This document shows positions 53,536-57,945 of a DNA stretch of 64,000 bases, in pieces. A program made the translations under genes and the position numbers. The stretch is from the NCBI GenBank assembly GCA_017524405.1, contig JAFWSJ010000015.1, forward strand, positions 124,001-188,000, read 5' to 3'. The notes under the pieces were generated by a model. The model worked only from the letters and a program-made list of their open reading frames with translations. It made no database searches and was not told where the DNA came from. Every line of letters starts with the position of its first letter. Position 1 is the first letter of the stretch. The stretch is from Candidatus Saccharimonadota bacterium. GTDB taxonomy: Bacteria; Patescibacteriota; Saccharimonadia; Saccharimonadales; Saccharimonadaceae.

Positions 53536-53558
53536 CCCCTGTTATCAGGGGTATTTTT
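53536..53558 (+). terminator. Terminator of prfA
   Basis: CCCCTG and CAGGGG pair around TTAT, followed by TATTTTT; it reaches the stop of the convergent gene. Confidence 0.8.
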
Positions 53559-54009
53559 AACGCATAAATCCACCAGTTTTTGGCGTCGGCCGCGCCGGGG
53601 CGTCAAATCTCGCCGCGCGCGCCGCTCTGGTGCCGCCGGCCCCTGTTCTATTAATCGACCCCAGATATTGCTGCCTCGTGTCATATTTGCGCAGTCCGCC
53701 CCTCTCCATTCGGTTATTAAACTCCTGATGGGAGGTCGTAGTGTCGCTATATTCACTCGCAAGGGAAGCTCTCTGTTCCTCAATCGAGCGCGCTTTTGGC
53801 ATCATCTTCACATCGGACGCGATTCGGGCGTTTTTGTACCCCTGTATTAGCTTCCGATTTTGCTCAATTTTCTGCCTCTCGGCAAAAGTAGTGGCATCCG
53901 CGGCGCCGAAGTTACCTCTGTTGCCAACCTGGGCGTAGCCGCTGCTATGCATTACATCCGCGGCGGAAGTGTTCGAAATACGCTTAATAAGCTTAACATT
54001 TAGGCCCAT
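53557..54009 (-). CDS. Basic low-complexity protein of unknown function
   Basis: 150 residues from ATG 54009 (MGLNVKLIKRISNTSAADVM). TATAAT lies 10 bases before it with AAGGGG between, so the leader is almost absent. Rich in R, A, T and Q, with no membrane segment; the end is PARPTPKTGGFMR. No family recognised. It lies between prfA and the secretion locus. Confidence 0.55.
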   Translation of the reverse strand: MGLNVKLIKRISNTSAADVMHSSGYAQVGNRGNFGAADATTFAERQKIEQNRKLIQGYKNARIASDVKMMPKARSIEEQRASLASEYSDTTTSHQEFNNRMERGGLRKYDTRQQYLGSINRTGAGGTRAARAARFDAPARPTPKTGGFMR

Positions 54010-54086
54010 CTTACCCCTTATTATACCACTTATTCCGCTTATGTATAAAATAAAACGCTTAAGTTGTAAATTATGGCGTAATACTA

Positions 54087-54115
54087 TTGACAAAACGTAA
54101 AAAGTTTGATATAAT
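54087..54115 (+). promoter_or_regulatory. Strong promoter of the 54.3 kb operon
   Basis: Perfect TTGACA, 17 bases, perfect TATAAT, the best consensus promoter in the window. Start expected near 54122. Confidence 0.8.
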
Positions 54116-54121
54116 AAGCAC

Positions 54122-54341
54122 AGCTAATTGTGGGAGCGTGACCGTCCTCATAAGAGGCGCATCGTTAACAAGTCAGATCATTGCTGCACACAAGCAGCAA
54201 CTGAATCATTTACGGGTACAACCTAGTTGTTCCCGGCGATGGGGACAATTAGGTTTTACCTAAAAGAACTTTATCAGCCGTAGGAACAACTAAGAAGGAG
54301 AGTTGTTCTGAGATAGTCTTGTCATTAGGAGGAAATTAAAA
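54122..54341 (+). ncRNA. Long structured leader RNA with two mutually exclusive folds
   Basis: A 220-base leader in the 332-base gap before gene 54342. Fixed hairpins: CCTC/GAGG (54146-54157) and TTGCTGC/GCAGCAA (54181-54200). Fold A: ACCTAGTTGTTCCC (54221-54234) with the segment at 54241-54254, 14 pairs; GAACAACT (54284-54291) with AGTTGTTC (54301-54308); then CCTAA (54259-54263) with TTAGG (54325-54329) of the ribosome site. Fold B: TAGTTGTTCC (54224-54233) with GGAACAACTA (54283-54292), 10 pairs, enclosing TTAGGT/ACCTAA (54249-54263), leaving the TTAGGAGG site free. Each fold is nested in itself and excludes the other. No known family recognised. Confidence 0.65.
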
Positions 54342-56141: not shown

Positions 56142-56166
56142 GGAGGGCCAATTTTAACGGCCCTCC
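56142..56166 (+). other. Stable hairpin between proline-rich gene and adhesin gene
   Basis: GGAGGGCC and GGCCCTCC pair around AATTTTAAC. The bases after it are not a clear T run, so it is a weak terminator or a processing or stability element. Otherwise 56090-56286 holds the adhesin gene leader, with no clear promoter seen. Confidence 0.5.
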
Positions 56167-56286
56167 TCGATTCCATGTTTGTATTCGGCAACGATCTGAC
56201 TTGCGAGCGGAAGTTTAACAATACGGCTAATGTTTGTTACAAACTTCTTATCTTGGAATTATTTCTAAAGAAAGGAATCAATATTT

Positions 56287-57945
56287 ATGAAGAAACTTAC
56301 TAAGGTCAGTCTTGGCGTTGCAGCCGCTGCTGCTATCGTCGCTGGCGCTGGCGTAGTTTCGGCGTGGGGTCCTGCTCGTACTACTTTTACGATGGAGAAA
56401 CCAGCTAATTACGTCACTTTCAACTCTATTACTAACAACGTTATTGGTGATGAGCGCTACTTCGTTTCCGCTTCTGAATACACCGGTAACGGCAATAATA
56501 ACCATTATGTAGACGGCATTCAGGTCGAGGAAGGCAAGGAATATGTTGTGCGTATGTATGTCCACAACAACGCTGCTTCTAACCTCAACCTTGTTGCCGA
56601 AAACGTTCGCGCTTACGTGATCCTTCCTACGGACACTGCAAGCGAAATCACGGTCGCTGGTAAGATTAACTCTTCCAACGCCAACCCAAAGACTGTTTGG
56701 GATGAAACAACTTTTAAATCCAAGAATGGTAAGAAGTTTAGCCTCGCCTATATCGATGGTACGGCTAAGTATTACAACATCGACAAGAATGGTAAGACCC
56801 GTTCGTTTAGCCTTGATGCATTAAACGACGGCAACGACCTCTTTACTAGCAAGGGTCACCTCCTTGGTTACGACCAAATGGACGGTAAGATTCCTGGCTG
56901 TAATGAATATTCTGGTTACCTCACTTTCCACGTAACTCCAAAGTTCGAGGAAGAAGCTAAGCCTGAACTTGAAATCCAGAAGGACGTCAAGATTCGTGGT
57001 ACTTCTACCTGGAGCGAAACTGTTACGGCTAAGGCTGGTGACACGGTTCGTTATCGTATCCACGTGAAGAACATCGGCAACGCCGTTGTTAACAACCTCG
57101 TGGTTCGCGATATTTTGCCTGCTGGCTTGACTTATGTTAAGGGCAGCACGCAGCTTGTTAATACTGCGCATAAGGATGGTATTACCCTCAGCGATAATAT
57201 CGTAAATAATGGCGTCAACCTCGGTAGCTATGCTGCTGGTGCTGGTGCTTATCTCTACTTCAACGCTACTGTTGATCAGGCTGTTGGTGAGAAGTGCGAA
57301 AACTCTAAGCTTCATAACAACGCTCAGGTTTACGCAACTGAAGTTCCAACGCCAAAAGAAGACGGTGCCGACGTGCTCGTCAATGGTAAGGCTTGTAACG
57401 AAGACCCTAACTTTACCATCAACAAGATGGTTCAGTTAAAGGGCGGTAACAGCTGGGCAGAGAATATCACTGTTAAGGCTGGCGACACCGTTCGCTATCG
57501 CATCCAGTTCAAGAACACTGGTGATGTCGAACTCAAGAATGTTGCTATCCGCGATATCCTTCCTGCAAACATCAGCTATGTCAAGGGCAGCACTGTTGTT
57601 GACGGCAAGTCCGTTAGCGACGGTATCACTACTGCCGACGGCATCATGATTGGCAACGTCAAGAAGGGTGCTGAAGTTACTGTTTACTTCTACGCTACGG
57701 TTAATGCCGCTTTGGCAAACAACTGTAACGATTCTACCCTCACGAACATCGCGAAGGGTAAATACAATAACGACGCTAAGACTGAAAAGTCTGACACCGC
57801 TAACGTCTCTGTGAAGGGCAAGGTCTGTAACGATCCTGAAATTCCAAAGACTGGTGCTACTAGCATCGTTACCGGCATCGTTGGTGCAACCGCTGTTGCA
57901 ACCGCCGCTGGTTACTATATCATTAGCCGCAAAAAGCTAAACTAA
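56287..57945 (+). CDS. Cell-wall-anchored adhesin with DUF11 repeats and IPKTG sorting signal
   Basis: 552 residues. Signal peptide (1-26, ending VVSAWG). A unique domain runs to about 225, then two DUF11-type repeats: EIQKDVKIRGTSTWSE to about 365 and INKMVQLKGGNSWAEN to about 510, each with VKAGDTVRYRI-like and VRDILPAGLTYVKGST-like motifs. The end is a sortase-type signal: IPKTG, a hydrophobic helix, and RKKLN. It should be linked to the wall or a pilus backbone by a sortase, not seen in this window. SD AAAGGAA. Its codons look richer in U-ending forms than the neighbours. Confidence 0.88.
   Translation: MKKLTKVSLGVAAAAAIVAGAGVVSAWGPARTTFTMEKPANYVTFNSITNNVIGDERYFVSASEYTGNGNNNHYVDGIQVEEGKEYVVRMYVHNNAASNLNLVAENVRAYVILPTDTASEITVAGKINSSNANPKTVWDETTFKSKNGKKFSLAYIDGTAKYYNIDKNGKTRSFSLDALNDGNDLFTSKGHLLGYDQMDGKIPGCNEYSGYLTFHVTPKFEEEAKPELEIQKDVKIRGTSTWSETVTAKAGDTVRYRIHVKNIGNAVVNNLVVRDILPAGLTYVKGSTQLVNTAHKDGITLSDNIVNNGVNLGSYAAGAGAYLYFNATVDQAVGEKCENSKLHNNAQVYATEVPTPKEDGADVLVNGKACNEDPNFTINKMVQLKGGNSWAENITVKAGDTVRYRIQFKNTGDVELKNVAIRDILPANISYVKGSTVVDGKSVSDGITTADGIMIGNVKKGAEVTVYFYATVNAALANNCNDSTLTNIAKGKYNNDAKTEKSDTANVSVKGKVCNDPEIPKTGATSIVTGIVGATAVATAAGYYIISRKKLN

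Follow-up and report, generated by a model that had tools for sequence, protein, structure and literature searches.

A boxA-like motif and a leader-trailer-like helix around two protein-coding genes in Saccharimonadaceae: a candidate rRNA-operon-type module on a message

The window, a 64,000-nucleotide stretch of DNA from a member of the Saccharimonadaceae, contains a locus in which a long leader precedes three genes of the same orientation (Table 1). The protein of gene 1 had no match in 150 other genomes of the family, and the surface protein encoded by gene 3 is present in 90 of 121 family genomes. The promoter in front of the leader (TTGACA-17-TATAAT with TG) is the only perfect match in the window when both strands are scanned, which bears out the statement of an earlier note on this DNA that the best promoter of the window precedes the leader; its placement of the leader ahead of a surface and secretion locus also holds. 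The Shine-Dalgarno site of gene 1 (54325-54333) lies outside the LEAD strand described below. On the other side of the promoter, a small conserved divergent gene (53557-54020; MGLNxKLIxRxTxTSxSDxxHSSGYA) sits between prfA/prmC and the leader across the genus.

Table 1. Features of the leader, the enclosed genes and the downstream spacer
Feature	Position in window	Strand	Remarks
Promoter, perfect -35/-10, 17-nt spacer, extended -10	54087..54115	+	Conserved through the genus
5' leader domain, short covarying stem (ATTG.. with ..YAAGAGG) ending at TTAACAA	54122..54164	+	
TTAACAA, boxA-like	54165..54171	+	Directly 5' of LEAD, overlapping it; resembles the rRNA leader motif of the family
LEAD strand of the predicted long-range helix, CAAGTCAGATCATTGCTGCACACAAG	54169..54194	+	25-bp helix
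Local hairpin TTGCTGC/GCAGCAA	54181..54200	+	5' arm common to LEAD; mutually exclusive with the long-range helix
Two hairpins of the earlier note (54221-54254 and 54284-54308)	54221..54308	+	Present, stable; in a variable stretch of the leader
Gene 1, short fast-evolving membrane protein, 154 aa	54342..54806	+	Enclosed by the helix
Gene 2, Thr/Pro-rich protein, 424 aa	54815..56089	+	Enclosed by the helix
GC-rich hairpin GAGGGCC/GGCCCTC	56143..56165	+	Between gene 2 and ANTI
ANTI strand (trailer-like), TTTGTATTCGGCAACGATCTGACTTG	56178..56203	+	Complement of LEAD; gene 2-gene 3 spacer
Second boxA-like motif, TTAACAATACGGCTAA	56215..56230	+	Just 3' of ANTI
Gene 3, surface protein (LPxTG, DUF11 domains)	56287..57945	+	First gene past ANTI

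The earlier note had read the leader as a riboswitch-like device, in which two exclusive nested folds hide or free the ribosome site of gene 1. The repeats it named are all present, including the inverted repeats 54215-54234/54241-54260, 54224-54233/54283-54292 (10 nt, 100%) and 54284-54291/54301-54308 (8 nt, 100%), and the leader is indeed structured, with the 239-nt leader folding much better than its shuffles (z = -4.9, 0/200). Constrained folding and the sequences of two relatives were used to examine folds A and B. When the leader is folded in isolation, the two hairpins of fold A are stable, with pair probabilities averaging 0.97 and 0.91, whereas fold B (approximately 3% of the ensemble) reaches 0.03 in its 10-pair helix and about 0.03 in the inner hairpin, and the supposed masking of the Shine-Dalgarno TTAGG by CCTAA has a predicted pairing of 0.0. 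In the closest relative (L010, G040) the target of CCTAA is lost, because the Shine-Dalgarno region there reads ACAGGAGG. The compensating changes expected in both folds were found in that relative for hairpin 2, whose pairing is kept by a two-sided change (GAACAAC/GTTGTTC to GAACGAC/GTCGTTC), but the helix of fold B survives there only via a wobble. In addition, the segment 54221-54308 is variable, whereas the 5' part of the leader is conserved. Rfam covariance searches at gathering and permissive thresholds assigned the leader to no family, with permissive matches far below the cut-offs, and detected no rRNA in the window; the earlier note had likewise recognised no known RNA class. A riboswitch with a ligand core was rejected, as there was no evidence of such a core. 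Despite the presence of the repeats and the stability of fold A, a switch at the ribosome site is thus barely credible, fold B being minor and the pairing with the Shine-Dalgarno site neither predicted nor conserved. A short ORF within the leader, with its ATG at 54239, was also dismissed, as it has no Shine-Dalgarno site. One further observation concerns this part of the leader, a possible covarying pseudoknot at 54230-54285 and in six relatives (L014, L016, L017, L019, L020 and L028): the first-hairpin loop, which reads GGGTAA in many relatives, CGGCGA in the window and TGGCGA in L010, can pair with downstream TTAACCC, TCAGCCG and TCAGCCA, respectively.

The conserved leader consists of the promoter and the first ~80 nt (54080-54200). 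Matches to this region were found in 44 of the 45 genus genomes searched, the weak cases being promoter-like sequence only, and a model of the leader core matched 36 of 45 genus members and, more weakly, five other genera of the family. Aligned leaders share the order covarying stem, GTTAACAA, CAARTCRGATCATTRCTG and covarying hairpin. In alignment A1, the first leader helix is paired in 93.8% of cells with two-sided changes in three of its four pairs, and the local hairpin (the second helix) in 95.5% with two-sided changes in five of seven; taken together, 94.8% of cells are paired, 8 of 11 pairs show two-sided changes, and none of 500 shuffles did as well on pairing. In isolated leaders of the genus, the unpaired fraction averages 63% over the 11 nt with which LEAD begins and 17% over the hairpin arm; the difference is weaker in other genera (51% and 39%). 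Mutually exclusive pairings of the kind postulated in the earlier note thus exist and covary, but they involve a different pair of structures than folds A and B. The true alternative is that of the 5' arm of the 54181-54200 hairpin, which pairs either locally or with the spacer 2 kb downstream.

The partner of LEAD, ANTI, lies 2 kb downstream on the same predicted transcript. A complement of LEAD was found ~2 kb away in essentially every genus genome that has the leader and enough downstream sequence, generally ~1.9-2.6 kb 3' of the leader; the partner strands of L046 and L068 were missed by the first pattern and located by hand, and several of the genomes compared are drafts. Among 28 distinct pairs of the genus (alignment A2), 95.1% of cells are paired and 16 of 25 pairs show two-sided changes, and among 26 distinct pairs from other genera (alignment A3) the values are 97.5% and 6 of 17; none of 500 shuffles reached this in either alignment, a count that does not remove the relatedness among the compared sequences. 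When one of the A2 strands is slid by 1-3 columns, pairing falls to 28-39%. The matched changes include TCGGATC with GATCCGA and TTGC with GCAA, as well as GACTG with CAGTC in a divergent clade, and in several loci whole blocks have changed together, namely AAATCGGACTGTTAC with GTAACAGTCCGATTT (L069, L070 and L072), CAGATCAGATC with GATCTGATCTG (L067), and TTACCATAC with GTATGGTAA (L068). A conserved A.C mismatch within the helix (A2 column 12), present in part of the genus including the window, speaks against the reading favoured below. The predicted duplex energy averages about -33 to -35 kcal/mol, compared with -8.5 for shuffles and with -11 to -15 for the region of the local hairpin, and since the 5' arm of this hairpin is LEAD sequence, the long helix must displace it. 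Complementary strands thus flank the two-gene segment and covary, as in a leader-trailer helix of the rRNA type.

Matched changes in both arms would also be expected if the strands were DNA inverted repeats, such as cassette ends, sites of recombination or a pair of sites recognised by one DNA-binding protein, and the LEAD-ORF-ANTI units that genus g36 carries in tandem, with up to seven pattern copies per genome, do resemble gene cassettes. However, in every unit that has a leader domain the promoter and the 5' stem lie outside the repeat, so that the repeats do not bound whole units including the promoter as those of a mobile cassette would. The units are collinear, each with a promoter of its own, and the enclosed genes are oriented like gene 3 in the loci read. 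LEAD also keeps the covarying local hairpin, which supports RNA over DNA, and outside the genus the non-Watson-Crick cells comprise 36 G.U and 7 A.C, cells that are not independent of descent and whose G.U excess is weak inside the genus. A role of the strands as DNA repeats is accordingly quite improbable. An integron-like attC site at the ANTI-LEAD junctions of the arrays, suggested by the long imperfect hairpin that the junction can form, was rejected because the repeat includes neither promoter nor 5' stem and because G.U pairs are preferred.

In ribosomal RNA, leader-trailer helices with boxA serve processing and folding. At the present loci, TTAACAA occurs both at LEAD and 3' of ANTI, and it matches the rRNA motif of the family only in part. 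Within 60 nt 3' of ANTI it was found in 71 of 83 loci versus ~1.5% in shuffles, for a motif that is short and AT-rich and whose LEAD copy belonged to the search pattern for leaders of other genera. The distance from ANTI is 6-14 nt in most cases, and the consensus after ANTI is TTAACAATTCGGCTAA, also written TTAACAATxCGGCTAA. The rRNA leaders of the family itself carry TTTRACAATTTAGTTGTGCAA, with YTTTRACAATTTAGTTGTGCAA-like motifs in 21 of 33, and there the motif opens the 5' strand of the 16S leader-trailer helix. The same order is seen in E. coli rrnB, where TTTAACAA is followed by ATCAGACAATCTGTGTG, which is paired with the trailer. The genes nusB and rnc were present in all eight family genomes tested. 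In these eight, the two genes share a strand and are separated by no more than ~1.5 kb (e.g., G000:C11:170621-172145).

The arrangement extends beyond the genus. A de novo scan upstream of gene 3, which made no assumption about sequence, covered 40 loci, mostly without the LEAD pattern, with three shuffles per locus and a cut-off at a score of 15.5 or more. It yielded a strong complementary pair in 18 of the 40 loci, about half giving no pair, and none of ~120 shuffles scored as high. The pairs are mostly unrelated in sequence between genera (e.g., CAACCAAATCATCTCAGATTTCAA with TTGAAGTTTGAGATGATTTGGTTG), and their shared context comprises a promoter, a leader stem, TTRANAA, LEAD, one or two genes, a hairpin, ANTI, TTAACAATTCGG and gene 3. 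Paralogues of gene 3 within the genus (L280-L282), which served as negative loci, showed no such pair. The hairpin between gene 2 and ANTI recurs at its position in the genus and in other genera. In genus g36 (L153, L128 and L159), units of LEAD, a small ORF and ANTI stand in tandem, the LEAD pattern occurring up to seven times per genome; in some units ANTI directly abuts the next LEAD, and no gene 3 follows ANTI in the arrays. Matches to the pattern include Saccharibacteria of the sheep and water-buffalo gut and strain TM7i, a carrier of the module with a complete genome (CP075337.1). TM7i is grown together with its host. Scattered matches in unrelated bacteria, mostly without a partner strand, are taken as chance. 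Second copies of the leader were also seen elsewhere in G023, G004 and G010 (L116, L117 and L118), at least two of them with a matching partner of their own.

At the level of sequence, the comparisons establish the long-range pairing, the competing hairpin and the recurrence of TTAACAA, and they point, with slightly better than even confidence, to a boxA and leader-trailer module of the kind known from rRNA operons that is here placed around two protein genes and through which RNase III could separate the messages. Newly made LEAD would at first consist of a partly exposed 5' stretch and the local hairpin, as the comparison indicates, and NusB/S10 bound to the boxA-like TTAACAA may keep the nascent leader near RNA polymerase. 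Once ANTI emerges, it would pair with the exposed stretch of LEAD and displace the local hairpin, a pairing whose conservation is seen across genomes, and the resulting 25-bp duplex would close the two-gene segment. RNase III could then cut the duplex, parting the gene 1-gene 2 message from that of the gene 3 surface protein, and the hairpin 5' of ANTI might protect the new 3' end of the former. Where gene 3 seems to have its own promoter, or a unit its own terminator, the module would act on the enclosed message only. We infer Nus binding, tethering, RNase III cleavage and an effect on protein amounts.

A different function for the same pairing would be a lock of the closed mRNA like that of hok or AapA, in which completion of the 3' end lets the two UTRs (5' and 3') of the gene 1-gene 2 message pair with each other, controlling its translation or decay, until 3' trimming or ribosomes reopen them, with Nus factors and RNase III unnecessary. 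The units are bracketed at the 5' UTR and at the 3' UTR or spacer, as such a lock would have it, and in AapA a local 5' hairpin likewise gives way to long-distance 5'-3' pairing (PMC6733600). Some array units appear to terminate soon after ANTI, without a second boxA-like motif. However, the ribosome site of gene 1 lies in neither LEAD nor the local hairpin, ANTI is usually found mid-operon and is followed by the boxA-like motif and gene 3, and the enclosed segment mostly measures 1.3-3 kb, often with two genes. The lock is therefore rather unlikely, although it stays the main rival on account of the apparent gene 3 promoters and unit terminators. In several other genera a promoter-like sequence stands 3' of ANTI, so that gene 3 seemingly has its own promoter and its separation is not the function everywhere. 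The same sequence bears on the proposal that the long-range pairing acts on gene 3 only, with the leader pairing, in cis or in trans, to the 5' UTR of gene 3 and thereby setting its translation. This proposal would suit the genus, where ANTI lies in a conserved 5' UTR, ~85 nt before the start of gene 3, with a small hairpin beside the ribosome site, but gene 3 could be made without ANTI wherever a promoter follows it, and in the arrays ANTI is not followed by a gene 3; control of gene 3 alone is thus clearly less probable than the lock. The small hairpin that immediately precedes the ribosome site of gene 3 (56231-56286) is conserved as TCCA..TGGA in the genus, and its counterpart in the UTR of other genera reads TTGATTT..CTGCGAG..AAATCAA.

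For the family as a whole, it is conceivable, at a little less than even confidence, that a module of the rRNA-operon type moved onto protein-coding operons, where it cuts or insulates messages, and that in one genus it multiplied into portable units, as many as seven to a genome, that each surround small genes, some of them for membrane proteins. If true, this would show that a message can be assembled and cleaved in the manner of pre-rRNA, with compensatory change running over very different sequences. The hosts of the module are tiny parasitic Saccharibacteria, in which the matching of the two halves has been kept even where the letters changed completely. The module may place surface and secretion genes under control at the RNA level in obligate epibionts, whose control of differentiation has been described as unknown (PMC11665869). 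No description of boxA combined with a leader-trailer helix on a message was found in the literature searched, which was covered in part.

Among known systems, riboswitches (Rfam classes) share with this leader a structured 5' region with alternative pairings, but here there is no Rfam match and no ligand core, and the partner strand lies 2 kb away. The hok/Sok and AapA/IsoA systems likewise combine 5'-3' long-distance pairing with a competing local 5' hairpin (PMC6733600); however, those mRNAs are short and come with an antisense RNA and a toxin, whereas the present insert is mostly 1.3-3 kb long, the enclosed proteins have 154 and 424 aa, and the Shine-Dalgarno site is not sequestered in the 5'-3' helix. 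A boxA in an mRNA leader is known from suhB, again in the leader of a protein-coding gene, but here two boxA-like motifs flank a helix, and the parts of the suhB report consulted note no leader-trailer helix (PMC5725501). The closest parallel in layout is offered by the rrn operons of E. coli, where boxA binds NusB, a leader-trailer helix longer than 17 bp is critical and is cut by RNase III, and its 5' strand contains the conserved boxC (PMC10250234). In contrast to rRNA operons, the RNA enclosed here encodes two proteins and no rRNA, the strands differ in sequence from the rRNA strands of the family, and the action of Nus factors and RNase III is putative. As in E. coli rrn, however, a boxA-like motif, a 5' strand, a kilobase-scale insert and a 3' strand are followed by a second boxA-like motif before the next product, the predicted helix exceeds 17 bp, the conserved 5' strand shows Watson-Crick and wobble covariation, and the strand sequences are rather similar, with TTTAACAATTTATCAGACAATCTGTGTG in E. 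coli and GTTAACAAATCAGATCATTACTGTGT here (PMC10250234).
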